From a virus, in IMG/VR virus record IMGVR_UViG_3300037245_002605, positions 1-23,364 of that record: 23,364 bases of DNA, one strand, 5' to 3'. The notes under the pieces are model-generated. The model made no database searches. It was not told where the DNA came from and was given only the letters and a program-made list of their open reading frames with translations. The translations under genes were made by a program, and so were the position numbers. Shown here piece after piece: positions 5,495 to 21,209 of the stretch (its first letter is position 1; each line of letters opens with the position of its first letter).

Positions 5495-5752
5495 ATGGCA
5501 ATTCTCGACCGCGCGGAAATCAAAGCGATTGTTCGCCCTTGGCGCCGGTACGTAGTCAAGAAGCTCAAGGAATCGAAGAATCTCAATCTCTCCGACCTCG
5601 AGCTCGCCGTCCAGGAAACGGAGGATTGGATCGAGGCGAACCAGGCCGACTACATTTCGGTGCTGTCCGAGCCCTACAAGGCGAACACGTCGGCGGCGGC
5701 GAAAATCCTCCTTTTCGCCTACGTCGCGTTGAAGCGAGGCGGGCTGCTGTAG
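5495..5752 (+). CDS. Small hypothetical protein of the structural block
   Basis: The gene encodes 85 residues from ATG 5495 with a strong AGGAGGAGG ribosome site just upstream. The protein is alpha-helical: a basic start (IVRPWRRYVVKKLKE), then an acidic, Trp-containing helix and a hydrophobic C-terminal helix. Small helical proteins of this kind commonly sit among phage structural genes, but I do not recognise a named family. The strong ribosome site suggests high expression. It ends two bases before the next start. Confidence 0.65.
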   Translation: MAILDRAEIKAIVRPWRRYVVKKLKESKNLNLSDLELAVQETEDWIEANQADYISVLSEPYKANTSAAAKILLFAYVALKRGGLL

Positions 5753-5754
5753 CG

Positions 5755-6573
5755 ATGGGCCTCTTGTTTGAACAGGCGCAAGTCGTTCACAATTTATCGA
5801 GTGATTTGCAGCTCAATTCGGATGATGATTTTACAATCATGGCCTGGGCCCTTCCGTTTGGTGTAGGCGGGGATGGTGCACCGTTTGACGGCGGCGCAAT
5901 TTTTTTGGTTTCGGGTGATGCGGGAGAGGTAATTTTTCAGCAAGTCACTAATGCGGGTCCCGGGAATGAACACTTCCAAGTGATCTACGATTTCGGCTCA
6001 GGGGAGTTGGTGTTGGATGCCCCGGATGGATCGGTGACGCATGACGTGTGGTCGCATTGGGCGGTTCGCTACACGAACAGCACTCACGAAATGGAAATCA
6101 TCAAGGACGCCGAAGGAATAGCCAGTGACACCACTGACCCAGGAGCAGGGGGGGATTTAGGAGACGAACTGTATGTCGGAGCGACGGACGTGCTCGCCGA
6201 GGAATCTCAACACGATGGAGTGTTGGCGGATTTCCGTATCTACAATGCGAGGGCCCTGACCGACATGGAGATCGACGGTTGTCGGTCAGGGCTGCCTCTC
6301 CATGCTGACATCCCTGGAGAAGATCCCACGCTGGCGCTTTGGTGGCAATTTCTCGTGGAGGGCGATGGAGTGACTGAGGCCGATATGTCGGGCGGGCGGC
6401 TCGGTGGAACGATGGTGGGCAATCCGGAGATATTCAACCACCCCTCGATCACCACGAGCAGACTGCATCTTGCGAAGCGGAACCGGACCTACTTTCTTCC
6501 CGCGGGATTCGTGTACCAGCAGGCCGTTTCTCGTTTCCGCAACGACGATGGCGATCTGACGGCGCCGCTCTGA
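5755..6573 (+). CDS. LamG/concanavalin-like lectin-fold virion protein
   Basis: The gene encodes 272 residues. ATG 5755 is chosen because it directly follows the upstream stop; the same frame is open back to 5539 but that part shadows the preceding gene. Residues 1-190 have the LamG-like pattern: DDDFTIMAWAL near the start, a central 'WSHWAVRYTNSTHEMEI' region, 'ELYVGATD', and 'GVLADFRIYNARAL', ending with a Cys. This fold usually binds glycans or mediates contacts in fibres or decorations. The C-terminal 70 residues are less clear. Base composition is clearly AT-richer than the terminase and portal genes, suggesting recent acquisition. Confidence 0.7.
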   Translation: MGLLFEQAQVVHNLSSDLQLNSDDDFTIMAWALPFGVGGDGAPFDGGAIFLVSGDAGEVIFQQVTNAGPGNEHFQVIYDFGSGELVLDAPDGSVTHDVWSHWAVRYTNSTHEMEIIKDAEGIASDTTDPGAGGDLGDELYVGATDVLAEESQHDGVLADFRIYNARALTDMEIDGCRSGLPLHADIPGEDPTLALWWQFLVEGDGVTEADMSGGRLGGTMVGNPEIFNHPSITTSRLHLAKRNRTYFLPAGFVYQQAVSRFRNDDGDLTAPL

Positions 6574-7719: not shown

Positions 7720-10700
7720 ATGCCTGACCCGATTCAAAACGGGGCACTTCGCACCGAGACCGAAAAAGGCACCGGCAGCGCCCAGGACGGCTCGCTCCGT
7801 ACCGAGGCAGAAAAGGAATCTGTCGCGATGACGCCGGTGGAGACGCCGCTCCGCACTCTCACGCTCACCCTTTTCACCCCTGCCCTGCACACCGGCGTCA
7901 CCGTCGACACGCCGCTCCGCACGCTCACGCTCACCCTTTTCACCCCTGCGTTCCAAAATCCGACGCCGCCGGTGGAGACGCCACTCCTCACCCTCACCCT
8001 CACGCTGTTCACGCCGGCCCTGCACACCGGCGTCACCGTCGACGCGCCGCTCGGCACTCTCACGCTGACGCTGTTGACCCCGAACACGAACCGGGGCGCG
8101 ACCTGGGCGGCGGCGGTAGACACGGCCATCACCGGCCAGGATGTGAGCTCCGACGTGCCCCTGCGGGCCCGCGTGCAGATAAAAATCACGGAGGGCACCG
8201 CCACCACGCCATCGTTCAAATGGCAATCGCAGAAGAACGCCGACGCCTGGCAAGACGTGACGGCGAGCTCGAGCAACGTCCAGACCCGGGCGACCGCCTG
8301 GTACGCGGATGGGGATGATTGCGCGGTCAAACTGCTGGGTGGGGGTGACACGCTCATCACCAACAACAACGCCGCCGAGGAGTCCACCGGCGTATTCCAG
8401 CTCCCCGTTGACTTCACGGTCGGCGACATTATCGAGGCCGAGGTTTCGTTTTTATTGATCTCCGCCGATCTGCTTGAACTCGACGACATTAAGCTGCGCG
8501 TGGTCGAGGGTGACGGCACGGCGTTCGCAACCTACACCTCCACGCCGACGTTTACCGACGTAGCCCAGGGCGCCGAAGTAATCATTGAGGCGCCGCTGCG
8601 CACTCTGACCCTGACGCTCTTGACCCCGAGCTCCTTGGCGACGGGCGTCGAGCTCGAGGCGCCGCTGCGCACCTTGACGCTCACCCTGCTCACGCCGGCC
8701 CTGCACACCGGCGTCACGGTCGACACGCCCCTGGCCACTCTGACCCTGACGCTGCTCACCCCCGCCGTGCACACCGGCGTCACCGTCGACACGCCGCTCC
8801 GTACCCTTACCCTGACGTTGTTGACGCCGGCGGTCCTCACGGGGGTCGCCCTCGATACCCCGCTCCACACGTTGACGCTCACGCTGCTGACGCCAGGGGT
8901 TGCAATAGGGGTGTCTGCGACCTCGCCATTGCAAACCCTCACGTTGACGCTGCTGACCCCGGCCCTGAATACCGGCGTCACGGTCGACCCCCCGCTCAAC
9001 ACGTTGACGCTCACCCTCTTGGTGCCCGCCCTCGAGACCGGCGTCACGGTGGTGGTGCCGCTCAATACGCTGACCTTGACGCTGCTCACCCCGAGCTCCG
9101 TGGCCACCGGCGTCGAGCTTGAGGCGCCGCTGCGCACGCTGACGCTCACCTTGCTGACGCCGGCCGTCGAGACTGGCGCCTCGACGAGCTCGCCGCTGCT
9201 CACCCTCACCCTGGTGCTGTTCACGCCATCGACCAACTTCGGTGTGGCGGTCGATGCGCCCTTGCGCACCCTGACGCTCACGCTGCTCACGCCGGCGGTC
9301 GAGACCGGCGTCACCGTGTTGGCTCCGCTCGACACCCTGACCCTGGTCAACCTGACGCCCAGCTCGGTGGGGATCGGCGTCACGCTGACGTCACCGGCTC
9401 TCGGATTGACGCTCACATTGCTCGCCCCCGACGTGCACACCGGCGTCACGGTGGTCGCCCCGCTGCGCACTCTCACCCTGACGCTGCTCACGCCATCGAC
9501 CAATTTCGGGGTGGCCGTGGATGTGCCGCTCAAGACCCTGACATTGACGCTTCTGGTGCCCACGGTAGCCAGCGGTGTGACGGTAGCGGCCCCGCTGCGC
9601 ACCCTGACGCTCACGTTGCTCACGCCCAGCTCGGTGGCCATCGGGGTGGCGCTGACGTCTCCGGCCCTGGGGCTCACGCTCACCCTGTTGACCCCCGACG
9701 TGCACACGGGCGTCACCGCGACCGCGCCGCTCAAGACGCTGACGCTGACTTTGTTCACCCCGGCCGTGGGCTTCGGTGTTGTCGTCCAGGCGCCGCTCAA
9801 GACGCTGACGTTGACCTTGCTGACGCCGGTCGTGCACACCGGCGTCACGGTGGTTGCGCCGCTGGGTACCCTGACGCTTTCCCTCTTGGTGCCCTCGGTG
9901 GCCGGCGGTGCTTCGGCGACCGCGCCTCTCAAGACGCTCACGCTGTCGCTGTTGACGCCGGCGGTGCACACCGGCGTCACGGCCAGCGCCCCGCTCAAGA
10001 CCCTGACATTGACGTTACTGACGCCGGCCTTGTTCACGGGTGTCACCGTCGACGCCCCGCTCAAGACCCTGACGCTGACCCTGCTCGAGCCCGCCGCCGA
10101 GACCGGCGTCACGGTAGCGGCCCCGCTCAAGACCCTGACGCTCTCGCTCGGAACGCCGACGGTCGGGATCGGCGCGCTGGTCACGGCCCCGCTCGCCACG
10201 CTGACGCTGACCCTGCTCGAGCCGTCGGTGGAAACCGCCCAGGGGGTGGAGCTCGAGGCCCCGCTCAAGACGCTGACGCTCACCCTGTTCGGGCCATCGC
10301 TCGCCGGCATCCGCGTCGACGCGCCACTCAAGAGTTTCCCGCTCGAGCTCCTGGTGCCAACGGTCAGCGCCGGCGGCGTCACCATAAGGCCCCAGGCGCT
10401 CACCCTGAGCCTGGTGCTGTTCGCCCCGACCGTGGGCGCCATCGCGGTCCCGCTGCTCTCGAAAACGCTCACCCTGCATGTACCGAGCGTGTTCTCGGGC
10501 GTCACCAACACGGTGGTCGAGGCCCCGCTGCGCACCCTGACGCTGACCCTGTTCGCGCCCTCGCACACCATCCTGGTGCCCGACGTTTTCTTCTTCTTCC
10601 TCAACCTGCTCGAGCCCACGGTGGCGGCCGGTGCCGGGATCGCTGCCCCGCTGAAATCGTTCCCCCTCGAGCTCTTTGCGCCGACGGTCGAGATCGAGCT

Positions 10701-11112
10701 CGTCGTCGAGGCGCCGCTCCACACCCTGACGCTCACGTTGTTGACGCCGGCGGTGGTGGCCAACGACGACGTGGTGCTCGAGGCGCCGCTGCTCACCAAG
10801 ACGATCACCCTCCTCACGCCGACGGTCGCCACGGGCGCCCTGGTCGAAACCCCGCTGCGCACGCTCACGCTCGAGCTGTTCGCGCCAAGCGTGGTCGCCG
10901 ATCCGAACCTGGTGGTCGTGGAGGCGGCGCTCAAGACGTTCAACCTGGTCCTGTTCCCGCCGGTTGCCGACGTCGGTGTGCCTACCTCGGCCGGTGATGG
11001 GGTTGCGCTGCTTTCAATATCGGTCGGTTCGACGATGCTCGACGGTGCCATCGGATCGAAAATGATTACTGCAACCGCCGGCAGCACCATGACCCAGGCG
11101 AGGGCTGGCTAA
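7720..11112 (+). CDS. Giant repeat protein with about 40 PLxTLTLTLLTP units
   Basis: The gene encodes 1130 residues from ATG 7720, eight bases after the preceding gene. The N-terminus (1-41) holds two short copies of an NGALRTETEK-like motif. Repeats 1-4 (residues 42-121) and 5-40 (291-1089) have the form (A/T)PL-x-TLTLTLLTP-x-V-x-TGVTVD, mostly 22 residues. Units 5-28 are very uniform, while 29-40 vary in length and sequence. Residues 122-290 are an inserted beta domain of a type seen in phage virion proteins (WAAAVDTAITG, RARVQIKI, AEVSFLLI). The tail (1090-1130) is Ser/Thr/Met-rich. There is no signal peptide. Alternating Leu/Thr and fixed Pro and Gly suggest a fibrous beta-structure, perhaps a fibre or decoration; fold and role are inferred. 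Confidence 0.85.
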   Translation: MPDPIQNGALRTETEKGTGSAQDGSLRTEAEKESVAMTPVETPLRTLTLTLFTPALHTGVTVDTPLRTLTLTLFTPAFQNPTPPVETPLLTLTLTLFTPALHTGVTVDAPLGTLTLTLLTPNTNRGATWAAAVDTAITGQDVSSDVPLRARVQIKITEGTATTPSFKWQSQKNADAWQDVTASSSNVQTRATAWYADGDDCAVKLLGGGDTLITNNNAAEESTGVFQLPVDFTVGDIIEAEVSFLLISADLLELDDIKLRVVEGDGTAFATYTSTPTFTDVAQGAEVIIEAPLRTLTLTLLTPSSLATGVELEAPLRTLTLTLLTPALHTGVTVDTPLATLTLTLLTPAVHTGVTVDTPLRTLTLTLLTPAVLTGVALDTPLHTLTLTLLTPGVAIGVSATSPLQTLTLTLLTPALNTGVTVDPPLNTLTLTLLVPALETGVTVVVPLNTLTLTLLTPSSVATGVELEAPLRTLTLTLLTPAVETGASTSSPLLTLTLVLFTPSTNFGVAVDAPLRTLTLTLLTPAVETGVTVLAPLDTLTLVNLTPSSVGIGVTLTSPALGLTLTLLAPDVHTGVTVVAPLRTLTLTLLTPSTNFGVAVDVPLKTLTLTLLVPTVASGVTVAAPLRTLTLTLLTPSSVAIGVALTSPALGLTLTLLTPDVHTGVTATAPLKTLTLTLFTPAVGFGVVVQAPLKTLTLTLLTPVVHTGVTVVAPLGTLTLSLLVPSVAGGASATAPLKTLTLSLLTPAVHTGVTASAPLKTLTLTLLTPALFTGVTVDAPLKTLTLTLLEPAAETGVTVAAPLKTLTLSLGTPTVGIGALVTAPLATLTLTLLEPSVETAQGVELEAPLKTLTLTLFGPSLAGIRVDAPLKSFPLELLVPTVSAGGVTIRPQALTLSLVLFAPTVGAIAVPLLSKTLTLHVPSVFSGVTNTVVEAPLRTLTLTLFAPSHTILVPDVFFFFLNLLEPTVAAGAGIAAPLKSFPLELFAPTVEIELVVEAPLHTLTLTLLTPAVVANDDVVLEAPLLTKTITLLTPTVATGALVETPLRTLTLELFAPSVVADPNLVVVEAALKTFNLVLFPPVADVGVPTSAGDGVALLSISVGSTMLDGAIGSKMITATAGSTMTQARAG
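7843..8082 (+). repeat. Repeat block A: units 1-4 of the TLTLTLLTP array
   Basis: Four in-frame units of about 66 bp (one of 69 bp; the fourth is cut after its Pro by the inserted domain) encode residues 42-121. Units 1 and 3 share near-identical DNA over the TGCACACCGGCGTCACCGTC segment, suggesting recent copying. Confidence 0.9.
8590..10986 (+). repeat. Repeat block B: units 5-40 of the TLTLTLLTP array
   Basis: Thirty-six in-frame units encode residues 291-1089. Lengths are 22 residues in most and 19-25 in the others. Units 14-17 (9190-9456) and 18-21 (9457-9723) form two adjacent 267-bp higher-order copies: both begin with STNFGVAVD-bearing units and end with SPALGLTLTLL units. DNA of the copies differs at many synonymous sites. 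Confidence 0.9.
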
Positions 11113-11957
11113 TGCCTGAACCACGACCGCGGGGATGGGCGGATTTGACGCCTTCGATGCTCCGGGCCCACGAGCTCGATTGGCGGGGGCCGCTCAAAGG
11201 AGCGACGATCGCCCCGGGCTCCGTTGGCTGGGCATCCGAGCCCTCGGGCCTGACCTTCACCAGCCTGACCATTGCCGGGGATCGCACCCTCGTCGACATC
11301 AGCCACCCGGCCACTACTCACCCCATCGACTACTTGGTGCGCTGCAAGTTGACCGACTCTGCGGGCTTCATCCACGAGACCGAGCCCCCCATCGAGCTCC
11401 GCGTCACGCCTGGCGGTGCCTACGACGGGGAGCTGTTGATGAATTGCCCGCTGCTCGAAGTGCCGACCAAGATCCTCAGTCTGGTGTTGCTCGTGCCGTC
11501 ATTTGAGAACCCGGACACGCCACCGGGAGAAGTGCCGAGCGGGGGATTCACTTACGAATCTATCCGTTTCCCCGGGTCCGATCATTCGATTCCACTTTTC
11601 GATTTCGGTGATCGGACGCAGGAGCGCGACTGGTCATTGACCTATGTGGAAGCGATGTCCGGGGGTGAGGTATGGGAGACTTTGGATGGATTTGTAAGCG
11701 TGCAGTTCATCGACACTCCGACGTACCCGGATGCAACCAGTGGATGTGGCCCGGGGCCGGGTGGTGCTTTCCCAACGCCCGACGGCTATACAATATTCAA
11801 GTGGGAGGTAACTGGAACCCCTCGTGATGACGAAACAACGCCAACAGACCTCACGCTCAATATCCGGCTCACGGCGACCGATGAACTGATTGAGACCGCT
11901 ATCGGGACGCATTGCGCAAGTTTCCCCTTCGAGTTCGACGTATGGTGGATCCCTTGA
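11112..11957 (+). CDS. Ig-like virion protein with a fused AT-rich C-terminal domain
   Basis: The gene encodes 281 residues, starting at ATG 11112 within TAATG, the stop of the giant repeat gene. Residues 1-103 are an Ig-like domain of a type common in small phage proteins (DWRGPLKGATI, GWASEPSGLTFTSLTI, HPIDYLVRCKLTDSAGFIHETEPPIELRV in outline) and are paralogous to the next gene. Residues 117-138 hold one degenerate copy of the giant protein's repeat (VPTKILSLVLLVPSF). The C-terminal half (140-281) is a further beta-rich domain with two late cysteines and visibly AT-richer codon use. The layout suggests that the repeat unit joined two modules. A fibre or decoration role is likely. Confidence 0.7.
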   Translation: MPEPRPRGWADLTPSMLRAHELDWRGPLKGATIAPGSVGWASEPSGLTFTSLTIAGDRTLVDISHPATTHPIDYLVRCKLTDSAGFIHETEPPIELRVTPGGAYDGELLMNCPLLEVPTKILSLVLLVPSFENPDTPPGEVPSGGFTYESIRFPGSDHSIPLFDFGDRTQERDWSLTYVEAMSGGEVWETLDGFVSVQFIDTPTYPDATSGCGPGPGGAFPTPDGYTIFKWEVTGTPRDDETTPTDLTLNIRLTATDELIETAIGTHCASFPFEFDVWWIP

Positions 11958-19243: not shown

Positions 19244-19654
19244 ATGAGCATCATCGCGCGAGACCTGATCACGCGCTCGATGCGCAAGATCAACGTGGTT
19301 GCCCGCGGTGAAGTGGCAACGGCCGAGGAGGCCGAGGACGGGCTCATTACGTTGAACGAGCTCCTTCACTCCTGGGAGACCGACGGCATCCACATCGGCC
19401 ACACCGATCTCACGCTCGACTCTGAGATACAGCTCCCGGACTCCCACATCCGAGGGCTGCGTTTGTTGTTAGCTCTGGAGCTCGCGTCGGAGCACGAGAA
19501 AGTGGTCGATGGCATCACCATCGCCCAGGCCGACCGGGCGAAGCGCCAGTTGATTGCCGAGTACATGGTGGTCCCGGATACCGAGTTCGACCGGACGCTG
19601 GTCGACTTCCAGGCGAACCGCCGGCGCGGTCGCTACAACATCAACGAGGGGTAG
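19244..19654 (+). CDS. Head-tail adaptor (P22 gp4-like)
   Basis: The gene encodes 136 residues from ATG 19244. P22 gp4 (166 residues) forms the ring below the portal. Here an N-terminal 'ARDLITRSMRKINVVARGEVAT..EAEDGLITLNELLHSW', in outline, shows the standard adaptor pattern: helix, 'A.....(A/L)...LN.(L/M)L..W', then a strand with DLTLDSEIQLPD. A helical 'LLLALELASEH' follows. The C-terminus is Arg-rich (RRRGRYNINEG). It sits directly upstream of the gp10-like gene, as in P22. The shorter length is compatible with other members of the family. Confidence 0.8.
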   Translation: MSIIARDLITRSMRKINVVARGEVATAEEAEDGLITLNELLHSWETDGIHIGHTDLTLDSEIQLPDSHIRGLRLLLALELASEHEKVVDGITIAQADRAKRQLIAEYMVVPDTEFDRTLVDFQANRRRGRYNINEG

Positions 19655-19658
19655 CGCC

Positions 19659-21209
19659 ATGCTCCTGCCGTTCGCCGCCGGCTTCAAGCAAGGCAAGTCA
19701 TTCGCCGTCGACACCGAGACGCTGGTGAATTGCTACATTGAGACGGCGACCAACCGCAACGCCAAGAGCGTGCGTGCCATCTACGGGCGCCAAGGGCTCA
19801 AACCGTTCGGCAACTGGGGCGAGCGCCCGGCCCGCGGCGTTCACCAGTTCGGGAACCGCGCTTATGCCGTGTTCCAGGACAGGCTCGAGGTTATCCGCCC
19901 GGACGGTGTGAGCTTCGTCGCCGGCCTGCTGTTGACCGAATCCGGCTTTGTGTCGATGGACGACAACGGCACCCAGCTCATGATCGTCGACGGCGCCAAC
20001 GGCTACATTTTCCCCGGCGTGGAACTCGGCGCCATCACCCTCGAGACGCCGCTCCTCATCCTGCCCCTGGCGCTGCAGACCCCTTCGGTAATGACGTCAA
20101 CCACCGTCGACGTGCCGGCGCTCGAGCTCACCATCACACTGGCGGCCCCGGCCGTCGTCGCCATCAAGGAGGGCGGCGAGCTCGCCCGCATCACCGACCC
20201 GGACTTCCCCTCGCGCCCGAGCCATGTGACTTACCTCGATGGGTTTTTCATCGTCAACGATGAGGGCACCGATCAGTGGTACGTGAGCTCGCTCAAAGAC
20301 GGCGCCGCCTGGAATGGGCTGGACTTCGCCAGCGCCGAGTCGGACCCGGACAAGCTGCGCAACGTCGTGGCCGACCACGGGGAGCTCTGGCTGTTTGGGG
20401 ACCGCTCGACGGAAGTGTGGCAAAACACCGGGCAAACGGACTTCACCTTTGAGCGTCTCCAGGGCGCCAAGATCCAGTGGGGCGTCCACGCGCCGTGGAG
20501 TGTCTCGCGCTACGCCGATACGCTGGTATGCCTGGCCGTTGATGACCACGGCGCCATCCAGGTGATCAGCTTCGTCAACTATCAACCCGTTCGCATCAGC
20601 AACGAGGCTATCGAGGAGGCCATCGCCGGCTACTCGCTGTCCACCGATGCCATTGCCTGGGTGATGGTGGACCGGGGACGTGAGTTCTATGTGCTGAGTT
20701 TTCCCACGGGCAAGCAGGCGTTCGCCTACGATGTGCGTGAGAAGGAATGGCATGAGCTCAAGACCGGCGCCGGCGCACGCTTCGTCCCTCAGCACCATAT
20801 CTATTTTCTCAACAAGCACCTGGTCAGCGACTACACCACCGGCAACCTATGGGAGCAGGCCGCCGGTTTGTTCGACGATGCCGGTGAGGAGATCCACCTG
20901 AAAGCGCGCGGCTATCATATCCACGACTCGGAGCGGGAGATCGGTCACGCTTCACTCCAAATCGTGTTCGAGGCCGGCGTCGGTCTCGCCGACGGCCAGG
21001 GCTCCGACCCCCAGGCGATGCTGCGTTGGTCGAATGACGGCGGCGGCACCTGGAGCAATGAATACTGGCGGAGCATCGGCAAGATTGGCAAAAGGCGTGC
21101 TCGCGCTATCTGGCGATCTCTCGGTCGGGCACGGGACCGCGTGTACGAGCTCACCGTCACCGATCCCGTGAAGCGCGTGATTGTCGGCATGGAGCTCAAG
21201 GCAAGCTGA
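19659..21209 (+). CDS. Tail stabilisation protein (P22 gp10-like) carrying two TLTLTLLTP-type repeat units
   Basis: The gene encodes 516 residues from ATG 19659. P22 gp10 has 472 residues and closes the portal vertex after packaging. Familiar blocks: LPFAAGFKQGKSF..NCYIET (N-terminus), ITDPDFPSRPSHVTYLDGFFIVNDEGT, LWLFGDRSTEVWQNTG, GVHAPWSVSRYADT, and EFYVLSFPTGKQAFAYDVREKEWHE. Between NGYIFPG and the ITDPDFP block, where relatives run almost directly together, residues 130-173 (20046-20177) hold two 22-residue units (TPLLILPLALQTP... and VPALELTITLAAP...) like those of the 7720-11112 protein. The surplus over P22, 44 residues, equals these two units. It precedes the small beta protein by TGATG. 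Confidence 0.85.
   Translation: MLLPFAAGFKQGKSFAVDTETLVNCYIETATNRNAKSVRAIYGRQGLKPFGNWGERPARGVHQFGNRAYAVFQDRLEVIRPDGVSFVAGLLLTESGFVSMDDNGTQLMIVDGANGYIFPGVELGAITLETPLLILPLALQTPSVMTSTTVDVPALELTITLAAPAVVAIKEGGELARITDPDFPSRPSHVTYLDGFFIVNDEGTDQWYVSSLKDGAAWNGLDFASAESDPDKLRNVVADHGELWLFGDRSTEVWQNTGQTDFTFERLQGAKIQWGVHAPWSVSRYADTLVCLAVDDHGAIQVISFVNYQPVRISNEAIEEAIAGYSLSTDAIAWVMVDRGREFYVLSFPTGKQAFAYDVREKEWHELKTGAGARFVPQHHIYFLNKHLVSDYTTGNLWEQAAGLFDDAGEEIHLKARGYHIHDSEREIGHASLQIVFEAGVGLADGQGSDPQAMLRWSNDGGGTWSNEYWRSIGKIGKRRARAIWRSLGRARDRVYELTVTDPVKRVIVGMELKAS
20046..20177 (+). repeat. Two TLTLTLLTP-type units inserted in the gp10-like gene
   Basis: Two in-frame 66-bp units encode residues 130-151 and 152-173. 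Each has the PL/PA start, alternating Leu/Thr/Ile strand, the (T/A)P break, and a Val/Thr-rich second half as in the giant repeat protein. They lie between conserved blocks of the tail protein, so they probably form a surface loop or extra domain. Confidence 0.75.

Follow-up and report, generated by a model that had tools for sequence, protein, structure and literature searches.

Why does the closure protein of a P22-like phage tail contain a repeat that is otherwise found in a giant protein encoded by the same phage? The window, i.e., the whole stretch of DNA analysed here, is a 23,364-base IMG/VR virus fragment with a P22-like morphogenesis cluster composed of terminase, P22-type portal (Pfam E 1.1e-151), scaffold, P22-type coat (9.1e-47), adaptor, gp10-like protein and ejection protein. 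A first-pass annotation of this DNA had proposed that the repeat of the giant protein was placed in the gp10-like protein as a shared display or interaction module, which might join fibre to tail or bind a common surface ligand. The observation was confirmed by the analyses described below, and the interpretation was partly supported. Table 1 lists the features under discussion.

Table 1. Features of the window discussed in the text
Feature	Position	Strand	Evidence or remark
Giant repeat protein, 1130 aa	7720..11112	+	About 38 units, each 20-26 (mostly 22) aa
Repeat region of the giant	7843..10920	+	
281-aa protein with one unit of the giant pattern	11112..11957	+	
Single unit of the 281-aa protein, VPTKILSLVLLVPSFENPDTPP	11460..11525	+	Weak by HMM, 4.1 bits
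Adaptor (P22 gp4/Ad3-like), partner layer of gp10; without insert	19244..19654	+	PHROG 12985 and 637
gp10-like head-closure/tail-plug protein, 516 aa	19659..21209	+	PHROG 578; Foldseek with AF2 model
Lineage-specific insert, residues 125-174, predicted outer beta-propeller hairpin	20031..20180	+	Family alignments
Insert unit 1, TPLLILPLALQTPSVMTSTTVD	20046..20111	+	13/22 identical to best giant unit
Insert unit 2, VPALELTITLAAPAVVAIKEGG	20112..20177	+	10/22 identical to best giant unit

The gp10-like open reading frame, which starts with the ATG at 19659, matched PHROG 578 ("head closure Hc3") at E 1.6e-103 over residues 3-515 of 516, and solved gp10-type proteins were matched both by sequence and by model. 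The AF2 model, built with 72 sequences (pLDDT 85.7, pTM 0.83, core pLDDT mostly >90), showed the beta-propeller/platform fold of the solved Hc3 members, and Foldseek paired it with the proteins of cyanophage Pan3 (9vyg, TM 0.91) and P22 (gp10, 8u10, TM 0.84). The score against Pfam PF11134 was below the curated cut-off (20.2 vs 25 bits), a shortfall that limits the Pfam name and not the membership in the wider PHROG family. As in the rest of the family, the protein is expected to form a hexamer closing the tail channel. It resembles P22 gp10 and PHROG 578 Hc3 (tubeB) in profile, in predicted propeller-plus-platform fold and in the gene order adaptor-gp10-ejection protein. What it adds to this otherwise ordinary P22-gp10-type protein is a 50-residue insert with two units of the giant type.

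The two units together occupy positions 20046-20177 (residues 130-173), in frame. They had been described as two exact 22-residue units adding 44 residues between conserved gp10-like blocks. The spacing is indeed exact, since both units are 22 aa (66 bp) long, but the letters differ, with 6/22 residues and 31/66 bases identical. The segment is inserted between conserved blocks as described, but family alignments gave it about 50 residues (125-174) and not 44; members of the lineage carry 49-59 extra residues. An additional argument, that the length of the protein exceeds that of P22 gp10 (472 aa in the PDB) by exactly the insert size (516 - 472 = 44), was dropped. The agreement is coincidental because there are small length differences elsewhere in the protein.

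When the insert was compared with the window by tblastn, the units of the giant were matched in register (52% over 42 aa) at E 5e-11, a value obtained with composition correction and low-complexity filtering both off. The complete gp10-like protein used as query matched the giant at E 3.5e-5. The features common to insert units and giant units are the spacing and the hydrophobic/proline pattern, not the letters. A two-unit HMM built from the giant scored 12.4 bits with the insert, while 2000 shuffles of it that preserved composition reached 8.8 bits at most. A single-unit HMM from the giant produced 2.4 bits, which is not significant, with shuffles reaching 6.6 bits. The likeness is short; only the pair of units is significant and the single units are weak. 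Among 16,820 open reading frames from all loci, the pair HMM hit only giant-type frames, frames that had been fetched by their repeat pattern and the gp10 frames of this lineage. These results support a resemblance between the insert and the giant repeat that goes beyond composition, as the first-pass annotation had claimed.

That annotation also suggested aligning the protein with its relatives to see if they lack residues 130-173. The insert was absent from all 12 named phage relatives (12/12), in which the segment is 24-29 residues long vs 77-78 here, and 101 of the 119 rows of the gp10 tree were free of any insert, so that most relatives have no equivalent segment of other sequence. The sequences flanking the insert align to relatives without a break. 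The insert is present in the close kin L001-L007 (82-97% identical). In G010/L170, whose protein is 59% identical, two diverged units keep the P..L.F.L...P pattern in an insert that is 29% identical and that the two-unit giant HMM no longer matched. Among the relatives without an insert, L171/L173 and L172 are the nearest. Because L172 lies inside the group, at a fork that the tree leaves open, one gain and one loss, or two gains, are possible. The alignments support the reading of the segment as an insertion relative to the gp10 family. Besides its insert, the G010 genome encodes a giant as well as a homologue of the 281-aa protein, the latter with one unit. The insert-free G019 is syntenic, its gene order matching from terminase to ejection genes, and neither a giant nor any units were found in it. 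There are, then, two independent genome types with both insert and giant and one with neither, a comparison that must be taken as a contrast and not as a statistic. Giant-bearing contigs without gp10 stop short of where gp10 would lie.

In the AF2 model, the strands at residues 99-102, 106-111 and 114-119 precede the insert and the strand at 177-178 follows it. The insert is thus modelled as the loop that joins the third strand of a four-stranded blade to the last and outermost one. Residues 131-162 have pLDDT values below 50, and because there is no confident fold in the monomer model the two coils of the insert may be disordered on their own. In the SU10 nozzle, blades 1-3 are located away from the channel and bear a fibre-dock loop and inserted nozzle domains (PMC9509320), and in the P22-type protein the conserved part is the one lining the interior (PMC10386132). 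From these two features we infer that the hairpin points outward, and the insert probably lies on the outside of the ring. Its evolution would be consistent with this location. In comparisons among the window, L003 and L005 the dN/dS of the insert was 0.46-0.74 vs 0.11-0.17 elsewhere, with length and pattern kept; the value against G010 was 1.04, which is unreliable due to saturation. Such ratios suggest relaxed, not absent, constraint, as for an exposed segment.

The SU10 and T7 nozzles have a beta-propeller at the same position, with extra segments arising from outward-facing blades (PMC9509320, PMC6702177). The insert site is not equated with the T7 nozzle-tip insertion because the profile comparison with T7 gp12 found no sequence alignment (hhalign probability 0.2%). 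The SU10 dock loop, a pseudo-threefold loop that binds a trimeric fibre, contains three tryptophans, whereas residues 125-174 of the gp10-like protein contain none, and the insert is not a loop of this type.

The insertion site was not used only once. About 140 family members were surveyed first, and their inserts of at least 45 residues clustered between query residues 124 and 175, the exceptions being L206, the distant L176 and one insert at a second site. The L206 insert consists of 89 residues at query residue 203/204. The modules in the hairpin were classified as kind A (the giant repeat), kind B (L083, L087 and L105) and kind C (L102, L108, L190 and L195), and single cases were found in L194, L211 and L213. 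A gp10 tree calculated after removing the insert columns required at least six changes between presence and absence, four of them forced by well-supported branches, and B (support 97) and C (support 100) appeared as clades amid insert-free kin. This was a quick tree with long branches, in which A, B and C are taken as firm separate clades and D, E and F consist of one long row each. Different modules occupy exactly this hairpin in no fewer than three well-supported clades and may do so in six or more lineages. Modules B and C resemble each other weakly (E 6e-4) and may be one module type gained twice. Because unrelated modules fill the same hairpin in other lineages, the event is not peculiar to the giant repeat. 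We consider the site itself, used by other phages for other modules, the more interesting result.

The modules of the L083, L102 and L286 types share the insertion point with the insert of the window, are similar in size or larger, and are beta-rich, although their sequences are unrelated to the units described here. Some of them match fibre or virion proteins. Module B showed 52% to a Bordetella phage tail-fibre/collar protein, and the insert of L286 and its kin (about 222-225 aa) matched PHROG 38233 ("tail fiber protein") at E 1.1e-19 as well as virion proteins. When the relatives of C were scanned, C-type modules turned up in dozens of them, along with a double insert of about 160 aa (L265), a further module type (L279) and the insert of L286 and its kin. 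C-type beta modules were also found in adaptor proteins (L102:3932-4894, L245:2800-3759 and L273:2779-3762); gp10 has a C-type module too in L102 and L245, and the gp10 hairpin of L273 is plain. Six apparent gp10 proteins of 760-835 aa (L245, L246, L247, L273, L276 and L291) were rejected due to internal stops, and in the two that were checked, L245 and L273, the apparent long gp10 was an adaptor-to-gp10 match across frames. The second site is located near residue 444 (444/445), in the C-terminal domain, and has inserts of 29-81 aa as well as laminin-G/lectin-type inserts of about 230-550 aa. Laminin-G domains were identified there in L285, L299 and L305 (Pfam 2.2e-11, 1e-15 and 1e-5, the last just under the curated cut-off).

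The giant, from which the units of the insert take their pattern, is a putative virion fibre with one non-repeat domain of about 160 aa placed after unit 4. Eight of its units were modelled as a regular beta-solenoid whose coils comprise 22 residues each (pLDDT 79, pTM 0.79). A named solenoid class was withheld because this model had no neighbour in the PDB (best E 0.26). A tblastn search of 50,697 phage records with the giant found nothing, an outcome to which low-complexity filtering probably contributed, and for this reason the result is no proof of its absence from cultured phages. No paper on a "22-residue repeat" in phage tails was retrieved from the literature. In the window and in G010 alike, the giant and gp10 contain units and the 281-aa protein has just one, i.e., an uncatalogued 22-residue repeat is common to three proteins of one phage. 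The homologues of the 281-aa protein in G010 and L112 have 1 and about 4 units, respectively, with an N-terminal domain before and a different C-terminal part after them. Since the L112 homologue has about 4 units before a differing C-terminus, the number of units varies and they look like interdomain connectors.

Promiscuous accessory domains such as Ig-like domains, BACON repeats (PMC6949934) and laminin-G are known in virions, where repeats in one protein recur in others. The 22-residue unit differs from these modules in that it matches no Pfam family; the insert matched nothing in Pfam or PHROG, Ig-like, BACON and laminin-G domains included. A further difference is the target, the closure ring, in which a single fixed hairpin accepts unrelated modules.

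On balance, we favor an explanation in which a P22-gp10-type closure protein gained an accessory module at an insertion-tolerant outer beta-propeller hairpin. Two coils of the giant's repeat would have been put there, most likely through recombination within or between related phages, and would have been retained while diverging. The hexameric ring would then carry six stubs around the tail, and the mechanism judged most likely is that these stubs act as an exposed docking or adhesion surface. Docking of the giant is the leading specific guess; the giant and the 281-aa protein could be held by coil-to-coil beta contacts. The fast divergence of the insert, which fits a conserved docking interface poorly, weakens this last part.

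That same rapid amino-acid change speaks for a display module for an outside ligand (sugar, host surface or particle) that works independently of the giant, the two having only the source module in common. The fibre-type modules at the hairpin and the laminin-G/lectin domains at the second site suggest surface binding over docking of a single partner. Nonetheless, the insert consists of two short units with no recognised binding domain, and we regard this alternative as possible but rather less probable than the accessory module favored above.

It is unlikely that the hairpin is just tolerant to insertions and that the units persist as a near-neutral passenger because only an exact in-frame deletion could remove them. 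The low model confidence, the acceptance of many differing modules and the ratio near 1 against G010, unreliable as it is, would be expected of a passenger. However, the two-unit pattern and the frame are retained in proteins ranging from 97% to 59% identity, dN/dS is well below 1 in the closer kin, and the accepted modules are not random, several matching fibre or virion proteins. Convergence of L-, T-, P- and V-rich beta-strand segments seems more doubtful still. The units are short and simple in composition, their identity to giant units is only 44-54%, and one unit alone is not significant. Against convergence stand the shuffled inserts, which never reached the score of the pair, the exact 22+22 register, the restriction of hits outside repeat-selected frames to the gp10 of this lineage, and the presence of units in the same three proteins of G010. 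Finally, an ancestral gp10 segment lost in relatives is very improbable. A local loss is conceivable for L172, whose branching with respect to L170 is not firm, but a plain short hairpin is found in 101/119 members, all named phages among them, and the clades that do have an insert there are scattered and contain modules of unrelated kinds.

The closure ring is usually viewed as a conserved plug. The recurrent insertions permit the tentative proposal, which we hold with clear reservations, that the gp10/Hc3 ring of short-tailed phages is a modular display scaffold in which unrelated fibre-type and lectin modules are repeatedly exchanged at two fixed plug-in sites, one at the outer propeller hairpin and the other in a C-terminal-domain loop, with binding coupled directly to the DNA gate. 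If the ring were such a recurrent attachment point for exchangeable modules, the length variation of the gp10 family would be explained, uncultured phages could be searched at a known position for adhesins attached to the tail, and contact with a surface would be linked to DNA release in a way open to testing.

Some observations concern the giant and its surroundings. The giant repeat family (window 7720-11112, L111, L121 and L135) has no Pfam match, and non-repeat domains interrupt the arrays of its members at different places. The units of the giant-type proteins of G009 and G010 are nearly uniform, as if the array had expanded recently. A 755-aa phage open reading frame (L139:1-2265) has a looser, related-looking repeat (PLTTFxLTLPxP...) and possibly forms a wider repeat class with the giant. 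Slightly upstream of the giant, window positions 5539-6573 encode a laminin-G-like protein (Pfam 1e-11). An 852-aa open frame lies antisense to the giant (window 8532-11090, minus strand) and most likely arises from the repetitive, GC-rich codons of that gene.
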